A DNA stretch of 64,000 nucleotides from Advenella kashmirensis W13003 (GTDB taxonomy: Bacteria > Pseudomonadota > Gammaproteobacteria > Burkholderiales > Burkholderiaceae_B). The translations under genes were made by a program, and so were the position numbers. Location: assembly GCF_000506985.1 (NCBI RefSeq), contig NZ_KI650979.1:1860710-1924709 (forward strand), read 5' to 3'. Below, one piece after another: positions 20,228 through 40,703 of the stretch (position 1 is its first letter; every line of letters begins with the position of its first letter). The notes under the pieces were generated by a model. That model saw only the letters and a program-made list of their open reading frames with translations, was not told the origin of the DNA and searched no databases.

Positions 20228-21862
20228 CTATTCTCTTACAAAATCCTCACCATTTCTGTTCAGAACACGCCCTTTGCGGATGTCTTTGTAGTTCGCTTCG
20301 TCAACGGCAAGTTTACCGTTCACAAAGACATATTTCATTCCTTTGGCCAACTGATGGGGTTCAGTGAAAGTGGCCATATCCTTAACTTCTTTTAAGTCAA
20401 AGATGGTTATGTCTGCGTACATATTCGTCATGAGAAAGCCTCGATCCTTCATGCGATGAACAGTAGCCGGAAGACCTGTCATTGAGTGTATCGCTGTCGC
20501 CAGCGGAACCAGATTATCGTCACGCGAATACTTGGCAATCATTCGTGGAAATGTACCGTAGACTCGAGGATGCGGCACACCTTCTCCCATAGGGACAAGA
20601 TCACCATCAGACGAGGTCATGCGCCACGGTTTGTTCATAAAAGATACGACGTCGCTCGTGAGCATATTGAAAGAAACGATGCCAATCTGTCCTTTTGCCT
20701 CGATCAATAACTCGATTGTCGTATCGACCGGACTCTTGCCTCTGCTTTCAGATATTTCGCTGAGCAACTTTCCTTCCAGAGAAGTATCCGGGCTGAAATT
20801 GGCCAATTGAATGCGTTCCGCGCCCCCGCGTCGTTCTAAATTCGTCTCGATTTCAGGTCGCATTTTGTCAAGGGCTGCGGTATCTTTAAGGTTTTCCAGC
20901 ATTTTCGATGTGCCGCCTGCCATAGCCCATCGTGGAATGAGCGCAGAAGATAACCCGGTCTTGGAAGCTTCATAAGGATATTGGTCTGCCCACATTTCTA
21001 CGCCATCGGCCCGCGCTTGCTCTATGCGTTGAGTTACCGCCTCAGAAAAGCCCCAAACTCGTGGGCCCAATGCTTTGACGTGTGTTACAACGCCGGGAAT
21101 TTTTGCCTCTCGGGCGACCTTGATGACTTCGTCGACTGACGGGATAAGTCCGATTGAGTAGTCGCTTTCGTCTCGGATATGGCTGGTATATAAGCCGCCG
21201 AACTCTCCGACGACCTTGCCCAGCTCCACAATTTCAGAAATATCAGCAAAAGATCCCGGAACATAAAAAAGACCGCTGGACAAACCGAACGCGCCATCCT
21301 GCATGCCCTTACGTACCAATTCGCGCATTTTATCCAGCTGCTCTTCACTTGCATGTTCGTCTACATCTCCCATTACCAAGCGACGAACCATCCCATGCGG
21401 AACAAGCTGGGCCACATTCACGCCAACTCCGTGGCTAAGAAGCTTTTGGCGCTGATCGGCGATATTGACGGTATCAGTGCCGGCCGAACCGCCGCCGCCA
21501 TCCGGGTTGACGACGACGGTGGTCAAGCCTTGTGCTAAAAGGGGTTCTGCTCCCCCCAGTTCAGCCTTTACCAGGCCGTCCCCAGCATGCGTGTGCGGGT
21601 CGATGAACCCAGGCGATACATAGAGTCCAGTGGCGTCAATGCGTCGTTCTGCACTCATATCCTTCAGATTTCCAATTGCTTTTATGCGGTCCCCCTTTAC
21701 AGCCACATCGGTCTTAGTCCATGGCGCACCGGTACCATCGAATACGAATCCGTTTTCGATAATCACATCGACTTTGTCATTGCTTATATCTTGAGCCAGA
21801 GCCGCTGAAGAAATCACACAGAGTGCAAGCCCGGCCAGTGTCTTTCCCACATTATTTAACAT
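20228..21862 (-). CDS. Periplasmic D-aminoacylase-like amidohydrolase (N-acyl-D-amino-acid deacylase family)
   Basis: This 544-residue metal-dependent amidohydrolase has a signal peptide (MLNNVGKTLAGLALCVISSA, cleavage near AQD), so it acts in the periplasm. The metal site HxH is in GFIDPHTHAGDG. The dihydroorotase/D-aminoacylase pattern continues with VTHVKALGP and the C-terminal YADITIFDLKE region. The start at 21862 is chosen because GGGAGGAAGG lies just upstream; an in-frame ATG at 21934 would add 24 residues before the signal peptide. It stands alone with no obvious partner. Likely substrates are N-acyl-D-amino acids or similar amides, not proven. Confidence 0.85.
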   Translation of the reverse strand: MLNNVGKTLAGLALCVISSAALAQDISNDKVDVIIENGFVFDGTGAPWTKTDVAVKGDRIKAIGNLKDMSAERRIDATGLYVSPGFIDPHTHAGDGLVKAELGGAEPLLAQGLTTVVVNPDGGGGSAGTDTVNIADQRQKLLSHGVGVNVAQLVPHGMVRRLVMGDVDEHASEEQLDKMRELVRKGMQDGAFGLSSGLFYVPGSFADISEIVELGKVVGEFGGLYTSHIRDESDYSIGLIPSVDEVIKVAREAKIPGVVTHVKALGPRVWGFSEAVTQRIEQARADGVEMWADQYPYEASKTGLSSALIPRWAMAGGTSKMLENLKDTAALDKMRPEIETNLERRGGAERIQLANFSPDTSLEGKLLSEISESRGKSPVDTTIELLIEAKGQIGIVSFNMLTSDVVSFMNKPWRMTSSDGDLVPMGEGVPHPRVYGTFPRMIAKYSRDDNLVPLATAIHSMTGLPATVHRMKDRGFLMTNMYADITIFDLKEVKDMATFTEPHQLAKGMKYVFVNGKLAVDEANYKDIRKGRVLNRNGEDFVRE

Positions 21863-22027
21863 CTTTTCCTTCCTCCCTTCATGATCAATATTTATTATTG
21901 GCTGTAATTTAATAAAGGGGATGAACTTCACCATGATTCACAATGAAGTACTCCCGATATTTATATTTAGTCTAGCGCTGTCATGATAATTCAGGCTAAC
22001 GTAATGCTATTGACTGAGTGTAAAAAA

Positions 22028-22221: not shown

Positions 22222-22376
22222 CAACAGACTTCAGTCTTTCGATTTAATATGAACAGAAGAAATAAAGTCTGTCGATTTCTTCTTAGAGGAATTTTTAAGG
22301 AAAATTGGACGTTAAGTCTGTCGATTTATCTGGTCGTCGCAATTTTCCATATCAAATTTGAACTAAAGTCTGTCGA
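22222..22376 (+). repeat. Cluster of degenerate AAGTCTGTCGATTT repeats
   Basis: Copies lie at 22232-22245 (CAGTCTTTCGATTT), 22265-22278 (AAGTCTGTCGATTT), 22314-22327 (AAGTCTGTCGATTT) and 22366-22376 (AAGTCTGTCGA). An inverted partial copy (ACAGACTT) lies at 22222-22229, and a weaker TCTGTCG at 22764-22770. Spacings of 33, 49 and 52 bp are irregular, unlike a CRISPR. Multiple short protein-binding sites, as at ends of Tn7-like or Tn552-like transposons or in an operator array, would fit. Confidence 0.5.
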
Positions 22377-22972
22377 GGCCAGTAGAACTGCGGCTTTTGA
22401 AGCCCCAGAATACCTGCGTTTGCGGAATTGAGTATTATGAATTTTTCTAATTCCCAGCTTGATTTCGTATTATGAAAATATTATATGGACTAGTTGATGA
22501 GATATCCGAGACCAGCGCCTACCGGATTGCTTAAGTTCATGCTTATCCCTATATCAATTTGATTGATCTTCAAAAGTGCAAAGCCATAGCCTTTCCCCCT
22601 GAAAAAGAAAATCAGTAGAAAAGGAATAGAGCTTGTTGATTTTTATTCTTCTCTTAACAGAACTCTATTTCTATACAAAACCACCGAAAGCGACATAAAA
22701 AATTCCTCAGGGACTAGGTCCTTCGGGATGCGTATCACGGAGATGACGCACAAATCTGAAGAATCTGTCGGACGTACGCTGGAACAGCGTACGTCTTGAA
22801 TGATATGGATGTCAAAGGTATCCATATCATTGCGGCTAACGAAGCATCCTTAATCCATCTTACCGCCATTTCTGACGTTCAGTGCAAAGGGTGAGGTGCT
22901 ACACGAAAAAAACCTGCTACAGACGAATTGGTGTGGTAATCAGTTGTATTTTTTTAAAATATTGTATTATTA
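22377..22972. other. AT-rich gap with two perfect hairpins, no recognisable gene
   Basis: No convincing gene is seen. The notable structure is at 22771-22830. GACGTACGCTG pairs with CAGCGTACGTC around a GAA loop (22771-22795). ATGATATGGAT (22800-22810) then pairs with ATCCATATCAT (22820-22830) around 9 nt. Two perfect 11-bp stems four bases apart suggest a structured RNA or a mobile-element end. A 60-codon minus frame (22643-22825) covers the same bases but has no ribosome site. Confidence 0.4.
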
Positions 22973-22987
22973 TATTGTAGTACAATA
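22973..22987. promoter_or_regulatory. GntR/FCD operator (TATTGTA-G-TACAATA) before the PrpD-like gene
   Basis: TATTGTAGTACAATA is a perfect 7-1-7 palindrome 22 bp before the PrpD-like start. The 13-bp core ATTGTAGTACAAT recurs exactly at 26250-26262, in front of the PrpF-like gene and next to the GntR gene. The TTGTA/TACAA form is typical of FadR/FCD-type GntR operators. It marks the genes on both sides of the GntR gene as one regulon. Confidence 0.7.
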
Positions 22988-23008: not shown

Positions 23009-24412
23009 ATGGGCGCGTGCAAGCTCTTCTATGATCAAGAGAGGTGGTCAAATTTGAACGCTCAATACCTGATTTCTAAATTTTCCAATGAGTTTTCCAA
23101 TGAATGCTTGTCGGAAAGCATTGTGAGAAGCGTTGCGTTAACGTTGTTGGATACCTATGCAGTAGCCCTTGGGGGACAAAGTGAACCAGCCTGCCTGGCG
23201 GCCGGGCAATATTTAGACGCACCGGGTCTGGATCCACAAGGAGTGTCAACCGTTTGGGGCTTGCGGCGGAAGACGTCACCGGAAGTCGCAGCATTAATAA
23301 ACGGGGTTGCTGCACATGTTCTAGACTATGACGATGTGAGCAGCCCATTACGTGGTCATCCCAGTGTCGTTCTGTGGCCTGCATTGGCTGCATTGGGAGA
23401 ATATACGGATATGCCAACAGCCAAAATGGCCAGTGCATATCTTGTAGGTTTCGAGGTGATGCTTAAGCTGGCGCGAGGGTTTGCCATTTCACAGTATGCG
23501 ACCGGATGGCATACCACAGCCTCCATTGGAATTATCGGCGCGACTGCGGCGTGCGCTCATCTTCTAGGGCTGAATATCTTCCAAACCAGCCACGCCATTG
23601 GTCTGGCGGTTGCGCAGACTGGCGGCAGTCGACAGAACGTCGGAACCCAGGCTAAATCATTTCAGGCGGGCCATGCCAATGCGGCTGCGGTACGTGCTGT
23701 CTTGATGGCACAAGCGGGATTCGAGGCTTCACCGGAAGCTTTGGATGGACCCTTTGGTTATTTTGCTCTTTATGCGCAAGATAGAAATGGCGGTAATGAG
23801 CTCTTCTCCATGGGAAAAGGAGCTTTGGAATTTGAGTGTATTGGCATCGATGTAAAAAAGTATCCAATGTGTTATGCCACTCATCGCGCGCTTGACGCTG
23901 TCACCGATCTGATGACGACACATAAAATTCATTGCGATGATATCGAGTCCGTAACGGTGCAAACGAACTCAGGCGCTTTAATCCCTCTTGTACATCCTTC
24001 GCCAGAAAGAGGGTTGGAAGGAAAATTCAGTATGCAATACGGAGTCGCTGCGATGCTGCTGGACGGCCAGGTCTGTTTATCGAGCTTTACCGATGCTGCG
24101 GTGGCCAGGCCTTCGGTCCGCGCGCTGATGCGACGTATTGCAGTCAGGGAAACCGACTCACCTATTGCTCCCCGTTGGGCCGAGGTTTGCATTCGCACAA
24201 AAAATACGGCTGTATATACCCAGAAAAGCGAGCTATTAAGAGGATCGGCGGCTGCACCTCTGTCAGAAAATGAAATGCTGCTCAAGGTGAAAGATTGTCT
24301 GGAATGGGGTAACTACAACGTCGATACTGCAAAGCTATACAAGGCGGTGATGAGGTTGGGAGAGGGGCATTCAAGGTCGTATTTTCAGCAGATTTACGAA
24401 ACACTTTTGTAA
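23009..24412 (+). CDS. MmgE/PrpD-family dehydratase-like protein (cassette A)
   Basis: This 467-residue protein belongs to the MmgE/PrpD family, which includes 2-methylcitrate dehydratase and cis-aconitate decarboxylase. Typical regions are HVLDYDDVSSPLRGHPS (~109) and KYPMCYATHRALD (~286), the latter equivalent to the KPYPxCxxxH motif. Two starts are possible. ATG 23009 has only GAAAG upstream. An in-frame TTG at 23054 has AGAGAGGTGG upstream and would give a protein starting MNAQYLISK, closer to family N-termini. It is followed by a Bug gene and controlled by the shared GntR operator. The likely role is dehydration or isomerisation of a tricarboxylate or branched hydroxy-acid. Confidence 0.85.
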   Translation: MGACKLFYDQERWSNLNAQYLISKFSNEFSNECLSESIVRSVALTLLDTYAVALGGQSEPACLAAGQYLDAPGLDPQGVSTVWGLRRKTSPEVAALINGVAAHVLDYDDVSSPLRGHPSVVLWPALAALGEYTDMPTAKMASAYLVGFEVMLKLARGFAISQYATGWHTTASIGIIGATAACAHLLGLNIFQTSHAIGLAVAQTGGSRQNVGTQAKSFQAGHANAAAVRAVLMAQAGFEASPEALDGPFGYFALYAQDRNGGNELFSMGKGALEFECIGIDVKKYPMCYATHRALDAVTDLMTTHKIHCDDIESVTVQTNSGALIPLVHPSPERGLEGKFSMQYGVAAMLLDGQVCLSSFTDAAVARPSVRALMRRIAVRETDSPIAPRWAEVCIRTKNTAVYTQKSELLRGSAAAPLSENEMLLKVKDCLEWGNYNVDTAKLYKAVMRLGEGHSRSYFQQIYETLL

Positions 24413-24486
24413 TGACTGATGTTCAAAAACAGGCTGCTTTTATATATAAAAAACGCAACCTTAAATCAATGATTGGAGACGAGTAA

Positions 24487-25449
24487 ATGAATTTAAATAA
24501 GTTTTCTAAAATATTATGTTGGGCCGTGAGTGGCACCCTAGGAGTTTCAACGGCGGCTGCCGCCACTTTTCCCGACAGACCTGTTACCGTAATGGTGCCG
24601 TATCCGGCAGGCGGGGGAACGGATGCGCTTGCGCGGAAACTGGCCCGCAGCCTGGCAGATTATTGGAAAGTGCCTGTTGTTGTAGAAAATGCAGGCGGTG
24701 CGGAAGGACAGATCGGTACCCAGCGTGTGCTCAATGCGCCAGCCGATGGCTACACGCTCTTGTTTCAGATCAGTCAGATGTTGTTGTGGAATAAAACAGT
24801 ACCGAATAACAAAATCGATGCAGTGAACGATTTTCGTTATGTCTCCAAAATCCAGACCTCACCTTTGGTATTTGGGGTTTCCTCAAAGCTTCCAGTGCGT
24901 AATTTCGAAGAGTATGTGACTTGGTGCAAATCGAATGATTGCGCATGGGGTTCCGGAAGCGCTTATGCGCAGCTGATTGGCAAGCAGTTAATGGCAGAAG
25001 CGGCTCTTGCTGACACCGTTAACGTGCCATACCGAGGAACTGCGCCGATGATGACCGATGTATTGGGGAGCCATATTGCAATGGCGGTTCCGGCAGTAAC
25101 GTCAAGCCTGGGGCAAATTAAAGGTGGAACGTTTAGGGCGCTGGCGGTCGGATCGAAAATGCGATTTGATCAATTGCCTGATGTCCCGACTCTCGCTGAA
25201 CTCAAGTATTCAGTCCAGGGTGAGACGTGGTATGGTTTGCTGGTTGCCAAGAAAACTCCCCAGCCTGCTTTCGAACGTATTGTCCAAGCCGTCAGGGCAG
25301 TCTCGACTGACGAAAGCTTGCGGGCACAGATACGCGCCGAAGGCGGCACGCCGGTATTCAATGCGCCGGATGTTTTCCAGCGTGAAGTGGAGCAGGAAAG
25401 CGAGCAGCTCAATACGCTACTGGATCGATACTGGGCTCCCCAAAAGTAA
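24487..25449 (+). CDS. Bug-type tripartite tricarboxylate receptor (TctC family)
   Basis: This 320-residue periplasmic receptor has a signal peptide ending near STAAAA. Motifs are PYPAGGGTDALARK, ENAGGAEGQIG and PADGYTLLFQ. A pair of cysteines (WCKSNDCAW, ~150) could form a disulfide, which is unusual among the Bugs here. It starts with ATG after TTGGAGACGAG, 74 bp after the PrpD-like gene. It is convergent with the GntR gene. It should bind the acid handled by cassette A. Confidence 0.92.
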   Translation: MNLNKFSKILCWAVSGTLGVSTAAAATFPDRPVTVMVPYPAGGGTDALARKLARSLADYWKVPVVVENAGGAEGQIGTQRVLNAPADGYTLLFQISQMLLWNKTVPNNKIDAVNDFRYVSKIQTSPLVFGVSSKLPVRNFEEYVTWCKSNDCAWGSGSAYAQLIGKQLMAEAALADTVNVPYRGTAPMMTDVLGSHIAMAVPAVTSSLGQIKGGTFRALAVGSKMRFDQLPDVPTLAELKYSVQGETWYGLLVAKKTPQPAFERIVQAVRAVSTDESLRAQIRAEGGTPVFNAPDVFQREVEQESEQLNTLLDRYWAPQK

Positions 25450-25464
25450 CTCAAAGTCCGTTTT

Positions 25465-26136
25465 TCAAGGAAAAATATCGGGTAATTTCATTACCCGGTC
25501 AGCCGCGTTCGCCAGGTGCTTTTGCATGAGACGCTCGGCAAGTTTTGCATCGCCCGCGAGCATTGCCGTTGCGATTTGGCTATGTTCCTTCTTCGAGCTA
25601 GTAATGTAGTCCCGATCCAGCGAACCCCTGATTTGGTATTTGACAAATGGGAGCTGCATTTGTTCGACAAGGCTTTGCAGTTTCTGGTTGTCGCAAAGTC
25701 TGAGTATGGTGCTGTGAAATTTGCTGTTTTCTTCTGAGAAATTCGCTATGTCGTCCGGGGCGCCGCTTGCGATCTGCTCTAACATTTTGTGTTCTTCCTT
25801 AAGTCCATGCTCTTTCAGATTCTCTGTCGCCAGTCTGGTGGCAAGTCCTTCGATGACCTGTCGAATCAGAAATAGATCGTGGATCTGTTTTCTGGAGAAT
25901 TTTTTGACGATAGCGCCCTTGTTTGGCACGACATCAATAAATCCCTCTGCCCCCAGTCTTCTGAACGCTTCGCGCAACGGCCCGCGGCTGACACCATAGT
26001 CTTTTACCAGGTCGGTAGCGACCAGACGCTGGCCGGGTGCGAAGGTCCCATTCTGAATGGATTTTTTTAACTGATTAAATAGCTGTTCGACCGTATTGCC
26101 ATGCAATTTGGGTGAAGACGACGGGGCTTCTGACAT
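25465..26136 (-). CDS. GntR-family regulator, FadR/FCD type
   Basis: This 223-residue regulator has an N-terminal winged HTH (~10-75: PGQRLVATDLVKDYGVSRGPLREAFRRLGAEGFIDVVPNKG) and an all-helical FCD ligand domain (~85-210) with the expected Asp/His-rich helices. FCD regulators bind carboxylates. It lies between the two halves of cassette A. The palindrome ATTGTAGTACAAT occurs before both the PrpD-like gene and the PrpF-like gene, so it is the likely repressor of both, relieved by the pathway acid. Confidence 0.9.
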   Translation of the reverse strand: MSEAPSSSPKLHGNTVEQLFNQLKKSIQNGTFAPGQRLVATDLVKDYGVSRGPLREAFRRLGAEGFIDVVPNKGAIVKKFSRKQIHDLFLIRQVIEGLATRLATENLKEHGLKEEHKMLEQIASGAPDDIANFSEENSKFHSTILRLCDNQKLQSLVEQMQLPFVKYQIRGSLDRDYITSSKKEHSQIATAMLAGDAKLAERLMQKHLANAADRVMKLPDIFP

Positions 26137-26222
26137 AGATCCAGGCTCGAAGAAAAAATAGGTTAATCGCCACGCTCTATTACAAGACAGGCGAGAAAAT
26201 TTGTGTGTCCTATTTTACTACC

Positions 26223-26262
26223 ATATTGTAGTATCGAATATATTCATTGATTGTAGTACAAT
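26223..26262. promoter_or_regulatory. GntR/FCD operators before the PrpF-like gene
   Basis: A perfect 6-1-6 palindrome ATTGTAGTACAAT is at 26250-26262, and an imperfect copy (TATTGTAGTATCGAATA) is at 26224-26240. Both lie between the divergent GntR and PrpF-like genes. The perfect core is identical to the one at 22974-22986. Its location means translation of the PrpF-like gene must start downstream, at GTG 26319. Confidence 0.7.
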
Positions 26263-26318
26263 ATAGGGATACAATAAAATCATTCAACCTCATTATTTAT
26301 TCTGTGCCAGGAGCAGCC

Positions 26319-27512
26319 GTGAACAAACCAGCCACACTTACACAGCCAGAGCAACGTGCCGTACCCTGCGTCATTCTGCGAGGCGGTACGAGTAAGGGGA
26401 TTTATTTTCATGAGGAGCATGTACCAGCGCCTGGTCCGGAAAGAGACCATTTTCTGCAAACCGTCATGGGCAGCCCCGATATCTTGCAGATCAATGGTCT
26501 GGGTGGGTCTCGCCTTATCACTTCCAAAATCGCAATCGTCAAGCGTTCAGAGCGAGACGATGCAGACATCGATTACACCTACGCGCAAGTGGTTCCCGAT
26601 CGCGATGTCGTCAGTTATGCAGGCAATTGCGGCAATATTTCGTCGGGTGTCGGGTCATTCGCAATTGACGAGGGACTTGTGAGTGCCGTGGAGCCCATCA
26701 CTCAGGTCCGTATATTCAATACGAATACGCAGAAAATACTTGTTGCGCATGTGCCTGTCGGTGGCGGCCTTGCCAGAGTTCACGGTGACTTCGCCATTCC
26801 TGGCGTGCCCGGAACGGGCGCGGAAATTTTTATGGACTACAGCAAAACGGCTGGAGCCAAAACTGGAAAATTGCTTCCGACAGGCAGCGCCCAGGATGTT
26901 GTTCAGTTAGAAGATGGCACTCAACTGACTGTTACGCTGGGCGATCTGGCCAATCCATGCGTATTCGTCCACGCACAGGACGTTGGATTGACTGGCAGCG
27001 AAATGCCAGTACAAATCAATGAAAACAAGGCGCTTATTTCCCGACTTAAGGAAATAAGGGGAAGGGCAGCGGTATTGGCTGGGTTCTGTGATGATTGGAA
27101 GCGGGCAGAAGCGGCATCGCCAAGTTTGCCTCTGGTCGTCATCATCGCTGGATCTGACGATTACTTAGACATGAATGGCAAGGCCGTTCCTCAGGAACAC
27201 ATGGATTTGCGAGCACGGCTGGTTTTTTATAACAAATGTCACGAGAGCATGGCAGGAACAGGTTCAATGTGCACGGCTGCAATGTCCAGAATACCCAATA
27301 CCATTGTGAATTTGACGGCGCGTAATACTGAGGGCGACACGCTGCGTATTGGTCATCCTTTGGGGGTAATGCATGTTGTTGCTGATGCAAACTCCGATGC
27401 GGTACAGGGAGAAGTCAGGTTCAAGCGCCTTGGCTTCAGCCGCACAGCCCGGCGGATTATGAGCGGTACTGTCTATATACCCAATAAACTGACATCAGAC
27501 GAAATTGGATAA
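26319..27512 (+). CDS. PrpF-family isomerase (methylaconitate/methylitaconate isomerase type)
   Basis: This ~397-residue protein has the diaminopimelate-epimerase fold used by PrpF, 4-oxalomesaconate tautomerase and 3-methylitaconate delta-isomerase. Typical regions are VILRGGTSKGIYF (~18-30), GSPDILQINGLGGSRLITSKIAIV (split around GLGGSRLITSK), YAGNCGNISSGVG with the conserved Cys, and CHESMAGTGSMCTA with the second Cys. The start is GTG 26319 with AGGAG upstream; a further-upstream frame would include the operator. It begins the main run of cassette A. A double-bond shift in an unsaturated di- or tricarboxylate is the expected reaction. Confidence 0.87.
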   Translation: MNKPATLTQPEQRAVPCVILRGGTSKGIYFHEEHVPAPGPERDHFLQTVMGSPDILQINGLGGSRLITSKIAIVKRSERDDADIDYTYAQVVPDRDVVSYAGNCGNISSGVGSFAIDEGLVSAVEPITQVRIFNTNTQKILVAHVPVGGGLARVHGDFAIPGVPGTGAEIFMDYSKTAGAKTGKLLPTGSAQDVVQLEDGTQLTVTLGDLANPCVFVHAQDVGLTGSEMPVQINENKALISRLKEIRGRAAVLAGFCDDWKRAEAASPSLPLVVIIAGSDDYLDMNGKAVPQEHMDLRARLVFYNKCHESMAGTGSMCTAAMSRIPNTIVNLTARNTEGDTLRIGHPLGVMHVVADANSDAVQGEVRFKRLGFSRTARRIMSGTVYIPNKLTSDEIG

Positions 27513-27568
27513 GCACCAGGAAAGTGGATTGAGCTTGGCGCTCACTTGATAATAATTGGAGAAATTGA

Positions 27569-28471
27569 ATGAACAAAGCGTCCGAAAAATTCCGTGCACT
27601 TCTTGGTGCAGGAGAAATGGCGGTTGCGCCAGGTGTCTATGATGGCCTGACAGCCCGTCTAGTTGAGCAGGCCGGCTTTCCGGTAGCCTATATGACCGGA
27701 GCGGGTACCTCTGCAGCCAGAGGTTATCCGGACTATGGCTTACTGACGATGACTGAAATGGCCGAGGCTGCCGGCGTCCTGGCTCGAACCGTCAACATTC
27801 CTGTTATTGCTGATGCGGACACCGGTTACGGCAATGAACTGAATGTCACACGCACCGTCCGTGAGTTTGAAATGCGCGGGGTAGCGGGTATACATATTGA
27901 GGACCAGGTCTTTCCGAAGCGTTGTGGCCACTTGGATGGGAAGGAGATTGTTCCTGTAGACGATTTTTTAGCGAAAATTCGCGCTGCTGTGGCGGCGCGT
28001 CAAGATAATAACTTTTGTATCATCGCCCGCACTGATGCGCGTGCCGTTACTACGTTCGAGGAAGCAATTTCCCGGGCAAATCAGGCAATTGACGCCGGCG
28101 CAGATATGATTTTTGTTGAGGCGACGCAGTCTATTGAAGAATTTGAGCAAGTGCCCAAATTGGTGCGCGGGCCGTGTCTGATTAATATTGTAAAAGGGGG
28201 TAAAACACCTGACATATCCCTGGTGGACGCTGCTAATGCGGGTTACCGGCTTGCAATATTACCAAGCTTGTTGTCGGTCGCTGCGACCGATGCTTGTGAA
28301 TTGGCCCTGACACAATTGATCCAGACAGGACGACCGCCTTCCTCGGCTAAGGGCGCTTCTTTACAGGCGCGTTTTCAACGATTCCGGGCCGACGAATGGG
28401 ATGCATTGCGTACCCGCTTTCGTGGTGAAACGTCGGAGTCCAGCGAGCACGTGGATCAGAAGAGGGCGTGA
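27569..28471 (+). CDS. Isocitrate lyase/PEP mutase family C-C lyase (PrpB/dimethylmalate-lyase-like), cassette A
   Basis: This 300-residue TIM-barrel lyase has the metal-binding DADTGYGN (D82, D84), the EDQ motif (~111) and the active-site loop PKRCGH (Cys119), as in methylisocitrate lyase PrpB and 2,3-dimethylmalate lyase. It should cleave a 2-hydroxy branched acid to pyruvate plus a smaller acid. It starts after TTGGAGAAATTGA and overlaps the aconitase-type large subunit closely. Two paralogs are in the window, at 35826 and 63097. Oxaloacetate decarboxylase activity, also found in this family, is an alternative. Confidence 0.88.
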   Translation: MNKASEKFRALLGAGEMAVAPGVYDGLTARLVEQAGFPVAYMTGAGTSAARGYPDYGLLTMTEMAEAAGVLARTVNIPVIADADTGYGNELNVTRTVREFEMRGVAGIHIEDQVFPKRCGHLDGKEIVPVDDFLAKIRAAVAARQDNNFCIIARTDARAVTTFEEAISRANQAIDAGADMIFVEATQSIEEFEQVPKLVRGPCLINIVKGGKTPDISLVDAANAGYRLAILPSLLSVAATDACELALTQLIQTGRPPSSAKGASLQARFQRFRADEWDALRTRFRGETSESSEHVDQKRA

Positions 28472-28473
28472 TA

Positions 28474-29874
28474 ATGAAAGCGCGTACCTTACTGGATAAG
28501 CTCTGGGATAGTCATGTTATTCAGCAATATGAAAATGGCTGGGCATTGTTGCATATTGATAGGCAATTACTTCATGACCTTTCGGGGACCGCAAGTCTGA
28601 ACGCACTATCCGCTCGTGGCTTGAGTGTACACAATCCCGAACTGGTATATGCAACGCCGGATCATGCCGTCTCTTCGGCAACTGGCAGGGACGCGTTTAC
28701 CTATGAGACGGGTGGAAAGTTATGGAAACGCCTTCACAATCTTACTCAGCAAGAGAATATCCGTTTCTTCGACATTGGTCAGCAGGGACATGGGATTGTT
28801 CATGTGATGGCGCCTGAACTGGGTCTGGTATTGCCCGGACTCACCGTGATTTGTGGCGATAGCCACACGTGCACAAATGGGGCGCTGGGGGCTCTGGCAT
28901 TTGGTGTGGGTTCTTCTGAACTTGCGCATGCATTGGCTACCCAGACATTGAAACAGCGCAAGCCCAAATCGATGCGAGTTCGATTCGAGGGGGCGCTATC
29001 GGCGGATGTGACCGCCAAAGACCTGATTCTATACACGATCGGACGGCTAGGAGTTTCTGCCGGGACAGGCTACGCGGTCGAATATACCGGTCCGGTGATC
29101 AGGCAGCTTTCCATGGAACAGCGCATGACATTGTGCAATCTGTCCATAGAGTTCGGTGCAAAAATGGGTTTCATTGCACCTGACCAAACCACGTTTGAGT
29201 ACATAAAAGGACGCCAATACGCGCCACGCGGAGACATATGGGATCAAGCTTGTGAGGCCTGGCTTACGTTGAACTCGGACGCCGACGCCCTATTCGATAG
29301 CGAAGTGGTCATTAACGCCGATGAAGTCGGGCAAATGATCACCTGGGGTATCAGCCCCGAACAGGTCATTTGCGTCGACCAGAATATTCCCGATGTTGAT
29401 GTGTCTTTGGACGATAGCGTGCGCAAGGCACGACAAGCTGCAGCGGAGTATATGGGCTTGACGCCTGGCGCCCCGCTTGCCGGCACACCGGTGGACCGTG
29501 TTTTTATTGGGTCCTGTACCAACGCTCGGCTGTCCGATCTTGTGGAGGCGGCCCGGGTGGTTCAAGGGCGTCATGTGGCGGGACACGTCAATGCTTGGGT
29601 TGTGCCTGGTTCGGAAGAGGTTAAGCAAGAGGCTCAGGCGTTGGGGCTTGACGTGGTTTTCAAAAATGCAGGATTTGAGTGGCGGGAACCGGGTTGCAGT
29701 ATGTGCGTGGCAGCTAATGGAGAAATCGGGCGATCCGGTGAAAGAATCGTTTCGACGACGAACAGAAATTTTGTCGGGCGCCAGGGACCTGGGGTACGCA
29801 CTCATCTAGCCAGTCCGCGCGTGGCCGCCGCGTGTGCGCTTGCGGGCGCCATCACCGGGACAATTGGAGGTTGA
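28474..29874 (+). CDS. Aconitase-superfamily dehydratase large subunit (LeuC/DmdA-like), cassette A
   Basis: This 466-residue protein has the 4Fe-4S ligands in LeuC-like places: GSCTN (Cys348) and PGCSMC (Cys408, Cys411). It also has ICGDSHTCTNG (~127). LeuC ligands in E. coli lie at nearly the same positions. The ATG at 28474 is preferred over GTG 28468. Together with the next gene it forms a two-subunit hydro-lyase. Because a PrpB-like lyase precedes it, hydration of an alkylmaleate or aconitate-like acid is more likely than leucine biosynthesis. No leuA or leuB is nearby. Confidence 0.9.
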   Translation: MKARTLLDKLWDSHVIQQYENGWALLHIDRQLLHDLSGTASLNALSARGLSVHNPELVYATPDHAVSSATGRDAFTYETGGKLWKRLHNLTQQENIRFFDIGQQGHGIVHVMAPELGLVLPGLTVICGDSHTCTNGALGALAFGVGSSELAHALATQTLKQRKPKSMRVRFEGALSADVTAKDLILYTIGRLGVSAGTGYAVEYTGPVIRQLSMEQRMTLCNLSIEFGAKMGFIAPDQTTFEYIKGRQYAPRGDIWDQACEAWLTLNSDADALFDSEVVINADEVGQMITWGISPEQVICVDQNIPDVDVSLDDSVRKARQAAAEYMGLTPGAPLAGTPVDRVFIGSCTNARLSDLVEAARVVQGRHVAGHVNAWVVPGSEEVKQEAQALGLDVVFKNAGFEWREPGCSMCVAANGEIGRSGERIVSTTNRNFVGRQGPGVRTHLASPRVAAACALAGAITGTIGG

Positions 29875-30495
29875 ATGGACAAGGTAAGAATCATTGAAGG
29901 TTGCGTGGCCAATTTGCGCAGGGATAATCTGGATACCGACACCATTATCCGTATTGAGCGCCTTAGCGCCATCGAAAGAAGCCAGCTCGGGCAGTACGCG
30001 TTTGAGGCCCTTCGTTACGGCAAAGACGGCGAGGCCGATCCGTCCTTTCCCTATAACCAGCCGATGTTTGCGCAAGCCCCGATTCTGATGGCCGGAAAGA
30101 ATTTCGGCTGTGGCTCATCCAGAGAAGGCGCAGTGTGGTCGCTGGTCAGTCTGGGTGTTAGATGCATCATTGCGCCCAGTTTTGGTGAAATATTCCACAA
30201 TAATTGCTTTCAGAACGGTGTGTTGCCGATTGTTTTGCCAGAGGGAACGATTACATCAATCGACTTGCAGACAAGCCAGGGACATGCGCTCACAGTGAAC
30301 TTGGAAACGCAGCAAATCCTGTTGCCTGACGGTCATGCCATCGGATTTGAAATTGATGCGCGCAGACGTGACGCCTTACTTGAGGGCCGGGACGATATTG
30401 AGCAGACATTGACCCAGGATGCAGAAATATGTGCATGGCAAGCACAGGATCGTCAGGCCAGACCATGGGTCTGGCTGCACATAGCGAACAACTAG
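29875..30495 (+). CDS. Aconitase-superfamily dehydratase small subunit (LeuD/DmdB-like), cassette A
   Basis: This 206-residue swivel-domain subunit has the substrate-binding loop GKNFGCGSSREGAVWSL (~77-93) and FGEIFHNNCFQNGVLPI. The loop has REGA where leucine-pathway LeuD usually has REHA, which hints at a different substrate. Its ATG follows the large-subunit stop directly; the ribosome site GGAGG lies inside that gene, showing coupling. It pairs with the large subunit in the cytoplasm. Confidence 0.9.
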   Translation: MDKVRIIEGCVANLRRDNLDTDTIIRIERLSAIERSQLGQYAFEALRYGKDGEADPSFPYNQPMFAQAPILMAGKNFGCGSSREGAVWSLVSLGVRCIIAPSFGEIFHNNCFQNGVLPIVLPEGTITSIDLQTSQGHALTVNLETQQILLPDGHAIGFEIDARRRDALLEGRDDIEQTLTQDAEICAWQAQDRQARPWVWLHIANN

Positions 30496-30518
30496 TAAAC
30501 TCATCAACGGAGATATTG

Positions 30519-31493
30519 ATGTATTCGATACTTAAAAAAATTTCATCAACCATATTCTTTGGTTGTCTAGGTTTAAGTCAGGCGCTTCACGCTCAGGCGA
30601 CCTATCCCGAAAAGCCGATAAAAATAGTTGTTCCTTATACTGCAGGTGCAAGTACAGACACATTGGCGCGCATTGTAGGAGAATCAGTATCCAAGCAACT
30701 CAAGCAACCGGTAATCATCGAGAATAAGCCTGGCGCAGCCGGCATTATTGCCAGCAATTACGTTAAGCAGCAAAAGCCGGATGGTTATACCTTGATGTTG
30801 ACTACAGACGGCATAGCGTCGGTCAATCCCTCTCTGTACAAAGCCGTGTCGTACGATTCAGTCAAAGATTTCACATCGTTGACAGTGGCGGTTTCGGTGT
30901 CCAATGCGCTGGTCGTACGCAACGACTCGGCGTTCAAGACAGTGGGTGACGTTGTGGACTATGCGAAGAAAAATCCGGAGAAACTGTCGTATGGCTCAGC
31001 GGGTGTTGGTAGTTCGTTGCATATCGCTGGCGAATTGCTAAACGATACAGAAGGCATCAATATCCTGCATGTACCATACAAGGGTGGCGCAGCAGAAATG
31101 AATGCCCTGCTCGGCAACGAGGTCTCGATGATTTATATACCCATGGTATCGGCCTTGAATTTTCAGTCGGCTGGGAAGGCGCGTATCCTGGGGATAGGCA
31201 GTAAAGAACGCAATTCTGCCGTACCTGATGTGCCCACTTTCAAAGAGCAGGGGATCGAATACGATTCCGATACCTGGTATGGATTTGTAGCACCTACCGG
31301 CGTTGACACCGCTGTAGTCAATGTGCTGAATGCGGCGATAGAAACTGCGCTGATCGATAACAAAGATCGCCTGGAAAAAATGGGATTTACGGTGACAGCA
31401 AGCAGTCCAGAGCAAATGGATGACGCAATTAGGACAGGCCTCGAAAGATGGAAGCCGCTTCTGCAGAAGATTGATCTATTCCAGAAAATGTAA
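30519..31493 (+). CDS. Bug-type tripartite tricarboxylate receptor (TctC family)
   Basis: This 324-residue receptor has a signal peptide (MYSILKKISSTIFFGCLG..., cleavage near LHAQA). The usual PGG motif reads PYTAGASTDTLAR, with Gly-Ala-Ser. Other motifs are ENKPGAAGII and PDGYTLMLT. The ATG at 30519 is chosen (ACGGAG upstream); longer frames would overlap the small-subunit gene and lack a signal peptide. It is the second Bug of cassette A, so the cassette may use two receptors or two ligands. Confidence 0.91.
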   Translation: MYSILKKISSTIFFGCLGLSQALHAQATYPEKPIKIVVPYTAGASTDTLARIVGESVSKQLKQPVIIENKPGAAGIIASNYVKQQKPDGYTLMLTTDGIASVNPSLYKAVSYDSVKDFTSLTVAVSVSNALVVRNDSAFKTVGDVVDYAKKNPEKLSYGSAGVGSSLHIAGELLNDTEGINILHVPYKGGAAEMNALLGNEVSMIYIPMVSALNFQSAGKARILGIGSKERNSAVPDVPTFKEQGIEYDSDTWYGFVAPTGVDTAVVNVLNAAIETALIDNKDRLEKMGFTVTASSPEQMDDAIRTGLERWKPLLQKIDLFQKM

Positions 31494-31683: not shown

Positions 31684-32469
31684 CTATCCAACGTCATGTA
31701 CCAGATGACCTGCCGAAACGGTATTCAATTCTTTACCGGAAATTGACATGACCATTCTGCTGCGTAACGGGGTTGCTCGAATGACGAGGTACTGGAGAGG
31801 CTGTTGTTTGCTATCGTAGACCAATCGGGTGGTTCGAAGAACGGGAGAATTGACTTTGATTTTCAGATGGTCTGCCACATTAGGGTCTGCCATTTCTGCC
31901 GTCACTTCCTGAACCACTTCTCCCAGTTGTGTGCCATCGCTGATCAGCAATTCGTATAAAGGTCTAGAACGTAAAGCGGATGCAGTTAGAATCGGCGCAA
32001 AGCGCGGTAGCATCCACGCGTCCAGTAACATCAGTGGCGTGCCTTTACGCTCGCGCACGCGCACCACATGTACCGCATTTTTGTCTTCGCTCAAACCAAT
32101 CGCCCGCGCTATCGTTAACGGTGGCTTCGCCAACTCCGACAGAATCAGCAAAACCCTGGTTTCATGGACAACCTGTTTCAGGCCTTGCAGGTATGTAAGT
32201 GATACGGTGGCCGCAGGCTTTCGCTGGTTCGGAAGAACGAATGAGCCGACACCTTGTTCATTTCGAATCAGGCCTTCTGTTTGCAGTTCTGAAAGCGCGC
32301 GCCGCACGGTAATACGTGATACTTTGAATTGCCTGGTAAGCGTATCCTGAGTCGGCAGTTGTTGACCTTCCAGATAAACACCATCCAATATTTGCTGACG
32401 AAGCGTCAGAAAAAGCTGGTAATGCAATAGTGTACCTTGAGCTTTGAGAGAAACTTTAGATGTTGGCAT
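31684..32469 (-). CDS. GntR-family regulator, HutC/UTRA type
   Basis: This 261-residue regulator has a winged HTH (~20-85: LPTQDTLTRQFKVSRITVRRALSELQTEGL) and a UTRA ligand domain (~100-245; LEDAxxxR-like region in RTTRLVYDSKQQPLQY). It is the last gene of a minus-strand run TauD-Bug-GntR, 32 bp after the Bug gene. It is a good candidate to bind the long inverted repeat at 34709-34750 ahead of this operon. Confidence 0.88.
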   Translation of the reverse strand: MPTSKVSLKAQGTLLHYQLFLTLRQQILDGVYLEGQQLPTQDTLTRQFKVSRITVRRALSELQTEGLIRNEQGVGSFVLPNQRKPAATVSLTYLQGLKQVVHETRVLLILSELAKPPLTIARAIGLSEDKNAVHVVRVRERKGTPLMLLDAWMLPRFAPILTASALRSRPLYELLISDGTQLGEVVQEVTAEMADPNVADHLKIKVNSPVLRTTRLVYDSKQQPLQYLVIRATPLRSRMVMSISGKELNTVSAGHLVHDVG

Positions 32470-32501
32470 AGGGAAAGTTGTGAATAGAGCAATGTGGCCG
32501 G

Positions 32502-33473
32502 TTATTGCGATGTCTCGTTTAAATGTAATCGCCTGATCATTGCTTCGTATTCTACCAAATCGCCCTGAAATCGTTTGTTAAATTCTTCAGGAGGGTCTCC
32601 TCCGATTTCGGCACCCAGAAATTTTAACTTATTCAGCACCTCGGGGTCTGTGAGCACGGTTTTAACGTCTTCGTAAATAGCATCGACTGTTTCCTTGGGC
32701 ATTTTTCCTGGACCGAATAGCCCATACCAACTATGTGATTCCAGGCCTGAAATGCCCTGTTCCAGCAGCGTGGGAGCGTTCGGTAACAGTTCACTGCGGC
32801 GAGAGGAGAGCACACCAAGGACTTTGACTTTACCGTCTTTGAGAAACGGCATGGCAGATGTGATACTCATAAAACCGGTGTCAATCAGGCCATTGAGCAG
32901 ATCAATTGTCCATTGGGAAGAGCCTCTGTAGCCAATATGTTGCATATCAAATTTTTCGCTCTCTTTGAGTCGTTCCCCATACATGCGCGTGCTTGTTTCA
33001 GCGCTCCCGAAAGTGAATTTTCCGGGTTTTTTTCTCGCTTCACTGATAAACTCAGGTACATTTTTCGCCTGCATGCCAGAAGAGGCAATCATTACCACTA
33101 CTGGGCGGGCAAGTGTCGTGATCGGAGTAAAAGCGGTTTTGGTGTTGTAGGGAAGTTTCTGAGTCATTATGTAGGGGTTGATGACAATCGAGGCGACCGA
33201 CAGCAGTAAGGTCGTGCCGTCTGGCTTCGACCTCGCTACATGTGCTGCACCGATAGAGCCATCGCCACCAGATCGATTATCGACCACTACAGGTTGGCCC
33301 CATATCGCACTCAGCTTTTGAGCAAAGAGTCGCCCGACTGTATCAGTCCCTCCTCCCGGGCCATAGGGTACAATCAACGTAACGGGTTTGGACGGCTTGA
33401 ATTCAGAGGACCAGGCCGATTGTGCGCAAACGCCCATTAACAGGCCTACTAATAATTGGTTGAATATTTTCAT
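32502..33473 (-). CDS. Bug-type tripartite tricarboxylate receptor (TctC family)
   Basis: This 323-residue receptor has signal peptide MKIFNQLLVGLLMGVCAQSA. Motifs are PYGPGGGTDTVGR, DNRSGGDGSIGA and KPDGTTLLLS (Thr replaces the usual Tyr). The start has AAGGAGACAAT upstream. It lies between the TauD-type dioxygenase and a GntR gene, so it should deliver the dioxygenase substrate. Confidence 0.92.
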   Translation of the reverse strand: MKIFNQLLVGLLMGVCAQSAWSSEFKPSKPVTLIVPYGPGGGTDTVGRLFAQKLSAIWGQPVVVDNRSGGDGSIGAAHVARSKPDGTTLLLSVASIVINPYIMTQKLPYNTKTAFTPITTLARPVVVMIASSGMQAKNVPEFISEARKKPGKFTFGSAETSTRMYGERLKESEKFDMQHIGYRGSSQWTIDLLNGLIDTGFMSITSAMPFLKDGKVKVLGVLSSRRSELLPNAPTLLEQGISGLESHSWYGLFGPGKMPKETVDAIYEDVKTVLTDPEVLNKLKFLGAEIGGDPPEEFNKRFQGDLVEYEAMIRRLHLNETSQ

Positions 33474-33574
33474 AATTGTCTCCTTAGCTATAAAAATACA
33501 TCAATACGCGCGGCTGCGGAATGATCAGCAGTCCGAGTTGAAGTTCGACGTATTAACGCTGAAAAATGCGCGTA

Positions 33575-34675
33575 TCACGGTTGAAATGACATACCCATTG
33601 CGAGAGCCTGGTCGGTATCGAAGCGCAGGCAATGTGCGTCGTAGTTCAGTCCCTTGTTTCCTCCGCGTACCGTCCCGGCTTCGCATGAACCCGTATACAG
33701 GTCCCAACCCTTGGGTAATTTGAACGAGTCCGGCATCGCCAGCCACAGGCGGTAGAGTGTGCGCTTGTTACTTTCGTTTGCATCGTCCTGAAAGCTCGTC
33801 CGGGAATGCAATATGGTTTGGTTGCTCAACAGTTGCAGGTCTCCACGCTCCAGGTGCATGCAGTACATAAGATCGGGGCGTCTTATTACAGCGTCCAAGT
33901 ACCCAATTGCTTCACTCTGCAGTGCAGTCAAACTTGGTACGCCTTCCAGTCTCTGGGCATTCCAGACGCGATTGCGGTTCCATGCGCAAAAAGTTCGGCC
34001 TTCTTCAAATCCATAGATCGGTGCATTTATCCACGAGGCTTCACCGGGTGCTTCCTGACCGTTCTTGCTGAATGGATAAGGCAGGAGTAAGGTTCGGGCC
34101 AATTCCGATCGCTCATGGGCAACAACCTCAAGGGCTTTGACGGCGCTGGTGCACATACTCATTCCCCCAACGGGGGCCTGGTTATAGCAACTGAGAAGAA
34201 CAATGTCCGCGCCGTCGACATGGAAGTCCAGTTGTTCGTGGGACGAGTACCCTCGACCATTCGGGCTTCGATAATCGGTACCGATATTTTTCACCTCATT
34301 CATGTATGAAGTGGATCGATCCTGAGGACGAGCGACGCCAAAATGTAGTCCTATGGCCCAGGTTATCAGTGCAAATTCATCCGGCCGCACATTCTCGCGG
34401 GGTATGCCCTTGATAAGGGCCATGCCGCGACCATCGCGCACTTCCCTGAAGCTCGTTGTCAGGGCATTTAGCACCGCATCAGAAAATGGAAAATCCGTCT
34501 TGCGGTATTCCAGCATTGATTTCTCTTCCCGACGGCCGTTGCGTACGGTGCTTAATAGTTCGGTAGCAATGTCGGGCGAGAGTTGATTTATCCAGCTGGT
34601 ATCTTCGGTTACGTCAGCTACCGTCCATGCTGCGCGAGGGTTGGGATTTTTCTTGAGTTCGGATATGACGTCCAC
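33575..34675 (-). CDS. TauD/TfdA-family Fe(II)/2-oxoglutarate dioxygenase
   Basis: This 366-residue dioxygenase has the HxD...H iron triad as His152-Val-Asp154 (LDFHVDGADIV) and His290 (NQTILHSRTSF). The 2-oxoglutarate-binding arginine is near 305-309 (RTLYRLW). It is longer than TauD (~283), with an N-terminal extension. The family hydroxylates sulfonates, phenoxyacids, betaines and other acids. It heads a minus-strand operon with a Bug and a GntR. The long inverted repeat lies 34 bp upstream of its start. The substrate is unknown. Confidence 0.85.
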   Translation of the reverse strand: MDVISELKKNPNPRAAWTVADVTEDTSWINQLSPDIATELLSTVRNGRREEKSMLEYRKTDFPFSDAVLNALTTSFREVRDGRGMALIKGIPRENVRPDEFALITWAIGLHFGVARPQDRSTSYMNEVKNIGTDYRSPNGRGYSSHEQLDFHVDGADIVLLSCYNQAPVGGMSMCTSAVKALEVVAHERSELARTLLLPYPFSKNGQEAPGEASWINAPIYGFEEGRTFCAWNRNRVWNAQRLEGVPSLTALQSEAIGYLDAVIRRPDLMYCMHLERGDLQLLSNQTILHSRTSFQDDANESNKRTLYRLWLAMPDSFKLPKGWDLYTGSCEAGTVRGGNKGLNYDAHCLRFDTDQALAMGMSFQP

Positions 34676-34708
34676 GAGTAGTCTCCTTTTGAATTGATGA
34701 TGAACAGT

Positions 34709-34750
34709 TTGTAAGTATGTTGATATACCAATATACCAACATACTTACAA
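34709..34750. promoter_or_regulatory. Long inverted repeat (operator) upstream of the TauD-Bug-GntR operon
   Basis: Two 19-bp arms (34709-34727 TTGTAAGTATGTTGATATA; 34732-34750) are inverted copies with one mismatch and a 4-nt centre. The centre also contains tandem ATATACCA units. This length and the GTATA/TATAC content fit a UTRA-type GntR operator. In RNA it would be a strong hairpin at the 5' end of the transcript. Confidence 0.6.
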
Positions 34751-34873
34751 AAAAGCGAGTTTTTTTTCTTGTTGATGCTACGTTGTCAATAGTGGCGGCT
34801 GAGCGACTTGCTTCTGTGCTAATAATTATTGAATTATTGTGGGAACGGGGCTGCGGAAACAAAGGCGCCGCTT

Positions 34874-35713: not shown

Positions 35714-35772
35714 GGAAAAAGTATAGCAAATGCGAGACCTCTGTGACAGCAACATTTCTGGCTTCAAACAGC

Positions 35773-35802
35773 TTGACGATATTTGACTAGTTGTGCAATA
35801 CT
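35773..35802 (+). promoter_or_regulatory. Promoter of cassette B
   Basis: TTGACG (35773-35778) and AATACT (35797-35802) are separated by 18 bp, giving a transcript start near 35808. AGTTGT (35789-35794) and ACAACT (35807-35812) form an inverted pair around the -10, a plausible regulator site. The short leader places GGAGG (35816-35820) just ahead of the TTG start of the lyase. Confidence 0.45.
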
Positions 35803-35825
35803 CTAGACAACTTATGGAGGCTAAC

Positions 35826-36695: not shown

Positions 36696-36702
36696 CGGAA
36701 TG

Positions 36703-38756: not shown

Positions 38757-38840
38757 ATATACGATTGAATATATAACACATGTCTGATCGGATAGAGTTT
38801 ATTAAAAGATAGAGCTTATTAAAACGAAAAGGAGACAACC

Positions 38841-38974
38841 TTGTTGCATCATTTTGAGCCACGCCAACTATCCCTGGCACAGCACTCAGGTACGCTTGGA
38901 ACGAGCGTGCGAACTAGCGGTGCACTCCATTACGCAGACGCTGAAGCGATCACCCTGACTGATTATCACAATTG
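38841..38974 (+). CDS. Candidate 44-residue small protein between the dehydratase and acyl-CoA synthetase genes
   Basis: A TTG start at 38841 follows AAAAGGAG with 6-bp spacing. The frame (MLHHFEPRQLSLAQ...TLTDYHN) stops at 38972-38974, about 16 bases before the next gene's ATG and overlapping its leader. I do not recognise it. The good ribosome site and position inside the operon support translation. It might be a leader peptide, a small accessory protein or the remnant of a larger gene. Confidence 0.35.
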
Positions 38975-38989
38975 AAATGGAGGAATCAA

Positions 38990-40636: not shown

Positions 40637-40703
40637 CCAACCTTGTCACCCTTGAGGTCATGCTGTTTTATCAAATTACTTGTCATCACACTGGACACTC
40701 ATC

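Follow-up and report, generated by a model that had tools for sequence, protein, structure and literature searches.

The terminal module of nicotinate fermentation in Eubacterium barkeri consists of the 3-methylitaconate isomerase Mii, the hydratase DmdAB, and the lyase Dml. HbzIJ is a LeuCD-type maleate/citraconate hydratase of methylgentisate pathways; leucine biosynthesis employs LeuCD itself, and the methylcitrate pathway comprises PrpC, PrpD or AcnD with PrpF, AcnB, and PrpB. In the genome of Advenella kashmirensis W13003 (4,846,031 bases), we analysed a window of 64,000 nucleotides (C1:1860710-1924709), in which positions 23009-31493 hold eight genes drawn from these protein families, here called cassette A; positions without a locus label refer to this window. 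Cassette A is a coherent, rare catabolic cassette. Its predicted enzymes suggest that it operates in the manner of the dimethylmaleate end of nicotinate fermentation, yet it does not belong to the E. barkeri module because it has a different type of hydratase and no front end of the pathway was found. We suggest, with a probability of roughly 0.6, that cassette A could be a substrate-induced unit that breaks down an imported branched unsaturated 1,4-dicarboxylate independently of coenzyme A (CoA). The likeliest predicted substrate would be 3-methylitaconate/2,3-dimethylmaleate or a close homologue, followed by itaconate/citraconate.

The genes were called from open reading frames together with Pfam, NCBIfam, and PDB searches, which found all eight where an earlier sequence-only reading of this DNA had placed them, in the order MmgE/PrpD, Bug, GntR/FCD (reverse strand), PrpF, PrpB-like lyase, LeuC, LeuD, and Bug. 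By family, the order of reactions is the same as in the E. barkeri module, the nearest solved isomerase is the one from that organism (3g7k), and in trees the lyase shares its group with a 2,3-dimethylmalate lyase. The earlier proposal that an external acid is isomerised, hydrated, and cleaved at a C-C bond is thereby supported by similarity, with the dimethylmaleate end of nicotinate fermentation as its nearest counterpart. Unlike the E. barkeri module, cassette A has a hydratase of the bacterial LeuCD type and additionally an MmgE/PrpD protein and Bug receptors. Moreover, the mutase family PF01642, which we presume the cobalamin-dependent methyleneglutarate mutase would match, had no match in the genome, whereas eight of 14 control genomes matched. 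The genome therefore appears to lack the front end of nicotinate fermentation, and the acid is probably supplied externally or by another pathway. Among the cassette genes, the Pfam and NCBIfam searches found no citrate synthase. The absence of PrpC, which had been claimed earlier, thus holds for the cassette, but the genome carries PrpC genes elsewhere (L114 and L116). Family searches also found no CoA-transferase, hydratase, or citramalyl-CoA lyase of the Ict, Ich, and Ccl type within 23009-31493.

The PrpF-family protein (26319-27512, forward strand, 397 amino acids) is predicted to be a double-bond isomerase. Its nearest relative in the PDB is E. barkeri Mii (3g7k, 356 bits, 47% identity), and PrpF (2h9f/2pvz, 234 bits), YbhH (215 bits), and oxalomesaconate isomerase (204 bits) are more distant. 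Its start was set by us at GTG 26319; the automatic list starts at TTG 26247, ahead of an operator candidate described below. The protein falls below the NCBIfam cut-offs of PrpF (270 versus 441) and of OMA-tautomerase, and an approximately unbiased (AU) test rejected a single clade uniting it with true PrpF (p = 0.011 (0.0111)). Mii adjoins the PrpF-like protein in the larger tree (91/85). The PrpF trees left out repeats and rows with fewer than 280 aligned residues, and the reduced tree of the AU test dropped 46 of 84 rows, which were picked by hand; the groups in the AU tests of both PrpF and the lyase were named after earlier trees had been seen. By similarity, Mii might be regarded as the nearest kin of the PrpF-like protein, with a common clade compatible only.

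The hydratase pair consists of a LeuC-like iron-sulfur large subunit (28474-29874, forward strand, with GTG 28468 as a possible alternative start) and a LeuD-like small subunit (29875-30495, forward strand). The sequence-only reading had likened them to DmdA/DmdB, an idea that was not borne out by the family cut-offs or by the LeuC tree. The large subunit is barely over the leuC model (TIGR00170, 574 bits versus a cut-off of 560) and below that of IPMI_arch (275 versus 410), and the small subunit passes the leuD model (TIGR00171, 169 versus 116) and remains below that of LEUD_arch/DmdB (80 versus 109); the DmdAB type was judged by these two archaeal-type models. When 37 LeuC proteins were placed in one tree, 31 rows of the cassette type separated with support of 100/99 from a group of six that comprises E. 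coli LeuC, the LeuC of the genome's own leucine operon, and four more. The 37 rows remained from 55 hits after omission of own-genome and locus repeats and of proteins with fewer than 380 aligned residues, with E. coli LeuC and the two LeuC proteins of the window added. The small subunit carries the loop motifs IIRIERL and SSREGAVW, whereas the biosynthetic LeuD of the same genome has IIPKQFL and SSREHAPW. The LeuCD pair appears, on these comparisons, to be a separate, catabolic clade of the bacterial LeuCD type rather than of the DmdAB type. As a LeuCD-type hydratase acting on maleates, HbzIJ would be a comparable enzyme.

Related LeuC proteins occurred at 17 places in 15 of 399 genomes drawn from the order, three of the 17 being in this genome. 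The LeuD motif was readable at 16 of the 17 places and had the R-I/V-E/D-R form in 13 of the 16. A PrpB-like gene lay within 1.5 kb at nine of these 13 places and in the wider stretch at one more, and none was found at the other three within the stretches examined; one of the three LeuD places without the motif has a PrpB-like neighbour. Two loci present other arrangements of this broad clade. At L144:8339-10420 (G318), LeuD and an isocitrate/isopropylmalate dehydrogenase domain make up one fusion protein (PF00694 and PF00180), whose gene adjoins LeuC and an MmgE/PrpD gene. On plasmid pLA3 of Novosphingobium pentaromativorans (L125), a LeuC 62% like that of cassette A and a LeuD are immediately followed by a CoA-transferase and a gene of the hydroxymethylglutaryl-CoA lyase type, in a stretch that also contains ring-cleavage genes.

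The lyase (27569-28471, forward strand, 300 amino acids, KRCGH motif) belongs to the isocitrate lyase (ICL)/PEP mutase superfamily and is, by its PDB matches and trees, dimethylmalate-lyase-like. It scored 195 bits against 2,3-dimethylmalate lyase (3fa3), 183 against the petal death protein, and 179 against oxaloacetate hydrolase, and 172 to 142 bits against PDB entries named methylisocitrate lyase (1mum, 147). For the lyase of the genome's own methylcitrate cluster this ranking is reversed (dimethylmalate lyase 166, methylisocitrate lyases 184 to 196 bits). Fifteen cassette-type lyases grouped with dimethylmalate lyase 3fa3 and oxaloacetate hydrolase 3lye in one tree (98/90) and in a second one (92/89, not starred), where the reference is 3fa3 and not E. 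barkeri Dml. AU tests rejected a clade of the cassette lyases with the methylisocitrate-lyase rows (p = 0.0074) as well as one with the group of the own methylcitrate-cluster lyase (p = 0.0126). Rows with fewer than 180 aligned residues, repeats, and own_L021 were left out of the lyase trees, and five long rows were dropped from the AU-test tree. The cassette lyase lies below the prpB model (267 versus a cut-off of 354), as does the own methylcitrate-cluster lyase (L114:7886-8743, 283). Its closest named relative, at 89%, is from Advenella; many close lyases bear the label isocitrate lyase/PEP mutase family, and the UniRef name of the Bordetella pseudohinzii lyase (P0189), an automatic label, starts with "2,3-dimethylmalate".

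The MmgE/PrpD protein (23009-24412, forward strand, 467 amino acids, PF03972/PF19305) looks like a two-base epimerase and not a dehydratase, judging from its conserved residues, and we predict that it acts on a dicarboxylate. Its best PDB match is iminodisuccinate (IDS) epimerase with 201 bits, compared with 48 bits for 2-methylcitrate dehydratase (1szq). The earlier assignment to the PrpD family stood, but closeness to 2-methylcitrate dehydratase did not, with 47 bits versus 458 for TIGR02330 and 49 versus a cut-off of 575 for the second model. All seven IDS-epimerase catalytic residues are kept (H103, D106, H117, Y163, H168, K216, and K283), including the second-base tyrosine; the reference residues H85, D88, H99, Y145, H150, K198, and K266 were taken from excerpts of PMC12290011. 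According to the same excerpts, the tyrosine is the second base of the isomerases and an extra tyrosine marks two-base isomerases; one MmgE/PrpD protein is a methylsuccinate isomerase; and all known substrates of the family share a C4 dicarboxylate core. A role as cis-aconitate decarboxylase was considered and is disfavoured, given at most 128 bits versus 201 for IDS epimerase and the presence of the epimerase tyrosine. The tyrosine alone is no proof, because the B. subtilis IRG1 entries, which match the cassette protein with 163 and 158 bits and whose function is called undetermined in the excerpts of PMC12290011, have a tyrosine at this position as well in the alignment. The cassette protein has (S)-(R)-methylsuccinate isomerase and IDS epimerase as its closest known counterparts and the catalytic residues of the latter, but it does not lie within an Ict/Ich/Ccl cluster. 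The MmgE/PrpD member in the genome's own itaconate-type cluster has B. subtilis IRG1 as its best PDB match, whereas the cassette member has IDS epimerase.

We surveyed the surroundings of PrpF relatives at 51 loci, namely 44 genome loci, five plasmid loci, and two from whole-genome searches. The plasmid loci derive from the six best of 349 plasmid records with PrpF matches, the sixth repeating a strain already among the five. Linkage was counted at the 39 loci of at least 11 kb, 12 being shorter, and PrpF relatives of at least 350 bits were called close and those below 350 bits distant. Lyase, LeuC, and LeuD together accompany the close PrpF at 12 of 14 loci and the distant one at none of 25; LeuC or LeuD, at the thresholds used, was likewise found at none of the 25. 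The close loci also hold an MmgE/PrpD gene in 11 of 14 cases and a Bug gene in 11 of 14. Among the 44 genome loci obtained with the PrpF query, seven have a close relative (59-70%), all seven with lyase, LeuC, LeuD, and Bug, and six with MmgE/PrpD. The arrangement of the cassette genes exceeds chance because lyase, LeuC, and LeuD accompany close PrpF so regularly. One distant locus (L041) has another kind of hydratase close by. In the actinomycete Streptantibioticus cattleyicolor, plasmid pSCATT (L121, 5689-11146) carries an archaeal-type LeuC, a DmdB-type LeuD, MmgE/PrpD, PrpF, and the lyase in a row. The small subunit reaches 134 bits (DmdB-type cut-off 109), and the large subunit scores 404 versus 386 for the homoaconitate-hydratase family and 400 for IPMI_arch, short of 410. 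The hydratase is thus of the DmdAB kind, and therefore one isomerase clade is paired with two hydratase types.

LeuD and PrpF form a single open frame in Bordetella petrii, B. pseudohinzii, and A. aloeverae, with the domains PF00694 and PF04303 (protein P0106 in A. aloeverae), and two further clustered proteins (P0057 and P0116) have the same layout. Such a fusion is direct evidence, at the level of protein architecture, that the hydratase and the double-bond isomerase cooperate. The cassette-type PrpF is rare: a close relative of at least 60% was found in six of 268 genomes of the family, and at E <= 1e-120 in two of 399 genomes sampled from the order and two of 398 sampled from the phylum, each time this genome and G572. 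Within the genus, two of ten genomes have it, and in the other one (G049) cassettes A and B adjoin as well, with identities of 79-94% for A; in B, the lyase, LeuC, and LeuD are 96-99% identical. A search of the open-access literature found no paper on a PrpF-LeuCD-lyase cassette, most subscription journals being outside that search, and for dimethylmaleate/dimethylmalate no title on the E. barkeri enzymes was among the matches listed.

Cassette A also looks like one regulated unit, as suggested by a pair of operator candidates. The palindrome ATTGTANTACAAT has exactly two sites in the whole 4.85-Mb genome, both in cassette A, whereas the reversed control pattern has none. Both sites read ATTGTAGTACAAT; the first (22974-22986) lies 22 bases ahead of the MmgE/PrpD start and the second (26250-26262) in the intergenic space between gntR and the prpF-like gene. 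Between them is the gene of the GntR/FCD regulator (25465-26136, reverse strand, PF00392 and PF07729), the presumed cassette repressor. One repressor could govern both transcripts and itself, because the sites precede the MmgE/PrpD gene and sit in the gntR-prpF gap. Copies with two mismatches occur at 22961-22973, abutting the first candidate, and at 26212-26224; within the window, six matches with up to two mismatches compare with 1.57 expected by chance, and such copies on their own are weak evidence. Chance matches were computed for the window and the control pattern was run on the genome. In Candidimonas humi, the identical 13 bases precede prpF (L033:9888) and a two-mismatch copy precedes the MmgE/PrpD gene (6380). 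B. petrii has a one-mismatch copy at 14396, shortly upstream of the second Bug gene and within the GntR frame, whose automatic start is probably too early, and a two-mismatch copy ahead of the lyase (7065). We infer that the GntR/FCD protein may bind ATTGTAGTACAAT.

Taken as a pathway, each reaction is predicted from family likeness. The two Bug/TctC receptors (24487-25449, PF03401 132 bits, and 30519-31493, 246 bits, automatic start 30429, both on the forward strand) would bind the acid for uptake; an 87% identical gene stands at the place equivalent to the second one in G049. The MmgE/PrpD protein, from its conserved residues, might epimerise the carbon beside a carboxylate, so that both enantiomers of a chiral 2-methylene- or alkyl-succinate would become usable. 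The PrpF-like enzyme, like its nearest relative, would move an exocyclic methylene double bond inward, as from 3-methylitaconate to 2,3-dimethylmaleate, and the LeuCD-like iron-sulfur enzyme could hydrate the resulting (alkyl)maleate. The ICL-superfamily lyase would then split the alkylmalate into pyruvate and a short acid, propionate from dimethylmalate or acetate from citramalate. If it is propionate, the acid could feed the methylcitrate pathway encoded elsewhere in the genome. The GntR/FCD protein would sit on both operator sites and be released by the substrate or an intermediate.

Several observations weigh against this picture. A PrpB-like gene is also present at eight of the 25 distant-PrpF loci, and two of the 14 close-PrpF loci lack a bacterial LeuCD; at the Paraburkholderia caribensis close-PrpF locus neither a lyase nor a hydratase was seen close by. 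A clade of the PrpF-like protein with Mii is neither supported nor rejected by the AU test (p = 0.42), and Mii joins other rows in the reduced tree. The top PDB match of the lyase is 4iqd, deposited as carboxyvinyl-carboxyphosphonate phosphorylmutase (200 bits versus 195 for dimethylmalate lyase); the AU test nevertheless counted it among its four "MICL" rows, a designation that we assigned ourselves. The tree group of dimethylmalate lyase also holds oxaloacetate hydrolase, and two lyase relatives (P0129 and P0164) are labelled oxaloacetate decarboxylase by their sources. The Thr-to-Val residue of the lyase fails to discriminate against tricarboxylates, and the arginines of the LeuD loop are candidates for binding a third carboxylate. 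Finally, five of the seven relative loci scanned have no operator with up to two mismatches; of these five, three have a UTRA-type regulator and in two the GntR protein is just 51-52% identical.

The same order of enzymes could instead serve itaconate and citraconate. The PrpF-like protein would convert itaconate to citraconate, LeuCD would hydrate it to (R)-citramalate, and the lyase would release pyruvate and acetate, with the MmgE/PrpD protein supplying itaconate or handling a derivative. In favour of this route, citraconate is a known substrate of LeuCD-type enzymes, and Mii is weakly active on itaconate. Also in its favour, LeuCD relatives on Novosphingobium pLA3 and Methylobacterium pMaq22A_2p stand beside CoA-transferase and hydroxymethylglutaryl-CoA-lyase genes, as would suit citramalyl-CoA cleavage. 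However, both acids are without a stereocentre, leaving an epimerase unneeded; for such an enzyme, a chiral substrate like 3-methylitaconate makes more sense than itaconate. In addition, a cluster elsewhere in the genome (L168) contains the families of the CoA-dependent itaconate/methylsuccinate route (CoA-transferase III, FAS1-dehydratase-like, HpcH lyase, acyl-CoA dehydrogenase, and MmgE), although the RipC model scores 156 bits there, below its cut-off of 375. Because of this cluster, itaconate is less needed as a substrate of cassette A, and we regard the itaconate route as unlikely.

A tricarboxylate could also enter the cassette, if trans-aconitate, methylaconitate, or a homologue were isomerised by the PrpF-like protein, hydrated by LeuCD, and split to succinate and glyoxylate or pyruvate. 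Members of the PrpF family act on aconitates, and the two extra arginines of the LeuD loop could hold the third carboxylate, but the PrpF-like protein does not group with true PrpF, nor the lyase with methylisocitrate lyases, and methylcitrate genes exist elsewhere, which makes a tricarboxylate rather improbable. Those genes comprise a PrpC-AcnD-PrpF-lyase cluster (AcnD 1804 and PrpF 742 bits) and a separate PrpC-PrpD pair (PrpD 881 bits). The methylcitrate pathway proper, with which the cassette shares overlapping families and to which the sequence-only reading had likened it, was rejected: the cassette has no PrpC, the PrpD, PrpF, and PrpB models all missed, the canonical genes are elsewhere, and the trees form separate groups. 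We had also considered the Val in place of the Thr of NxTEFG in the lyase as a sign against tricarboxylates and dropped it, since the own methylcitrate-cluster lyase likewise has Val. That lyase (L114:7886-8743) is without the Thr present in printed methylisocitrate-lyase sequences. The Val was also dropped as a sign because, according to excerpts of PMC5373536, prpB of Advenella mimigardefordensis, with a gene order matching that of the own methylcitrate cluster, is reported to be a methylisocitrate lyase.

Alternatively, cassette A might belong to a set of 2-alkylmalate degradation modules, in which LeuCD would turn a 2-alkylmalate into a 3-alkylmalate before cleavage, PrpF and MmgE would be accessory isomerases, and cassettes A, B, and C would handle different chain lengths. 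The genome has five PrpB-LeuC-LeuD modules (A, B, L113, L112, and L111), and B and C share a related acyl-CoA ligase (68% identical), the B copy being over the cut-off of the 3-(methylthio)propionyl-CoA ligase model. Cassette A itself, however, is without an acyl-CoA ligase, and its PrpF isomerase, together with the LeuD fusion in relatives, points to a substrate that is unsaturated when it reaches the hydratase, so that this explanation, too, has a low probability. That LeuCD is a spare isopropylmalate isomerase in a chance assembly is scarcely credible: both subunits are over the NCBIfam leuC/leuD cut-offs, but the cassette LeuC forms its separate clade, linkage and fusion are conserved, and the genome has its own leuCDB operon (L108; leuB 496 bits versus a cut-off of 353, LeuC 793, LeuD 264), so that a role in leucine synthesis is rejected for a pair of the same protein family that is not linked to leuB and has other LeuD loop motifs.

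Returning to the branched-dicarboxylate unit, a wider evolutionary reading is conceivable, to which we would give somewhat less than even odds. A branch of the LeuCD family might have left leucine synthesis to become catabolic (alkyl)maleate hydratases with interchangeable downstream enzymes, namely an ICL-type lyase, a CoA-transferase with a hydroxymethylglutaryl-CoA-lyase-like enzyme, or a LeuB-type dehydrogenase. Cassette A could then be the version with an epimerase and a Mii-like isomerase, the latter joined to LeuD in certain relatives, by which a chiral methylene- or dialkyl-succinate would be degraded without CoA; our open-access literature search found no such route. In the records examined, genes of this type are mostly named leuC, leuD, PrpF protein, or isocitrate lyase/PEP mutase family, names under which a likely catabolic pathway goes unnoticed. 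If our prediction is true, the cassette would allow branched dicarboxylates, for instance 3-methylitaconate, dimethylmaleate, or citraconate, to be used without CoA, and it could yield selective hydratases and lyases as well as a dedicated sensor for these acids. Because of the LeuD-PrpF fusion and the two unique operator sites, the prediction lends itself to direct testing.

The MmgE/PrpD and aconitase families have undergone a large expansion in this genome, where 15 places match the former and 16 stretches match the latter; among these stretches are two pairs that each seem to be a single gene. Cassette B (31684-43173) follows cassette A and encodes two GntR/UTRA-type regulators, one of which was scanned against family models, a Bug protein, a TauD/TfdA dioxygenase, PrpB-LeuC-LeuD, an acyl-CoA ligase (3-(methylthio)propionyl-CoA ligase model, 968 bits versus a cut-off of 822), MmgE/PrpD, and a further Bug protein. 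Its lyase and LeuC group with those of cassettes in Variovorax and G572 in which a cassette A-type PrpF is present as well. A third module (L113), PrpB-LeuC-LeuD-Bug-ligase, begins at the window end (63097-64000) and extends past it. Just past cassette B, an open frame at 43353-44237 resembles, by eye, an IS3-type transposase. Upstream of cassette A, an amidohydrolase gene (PF07969) occupies 20228-21934 on the opposite strand, and AAGTCTGTCGA occurs three times within approximately 112 bases (22265-22376).

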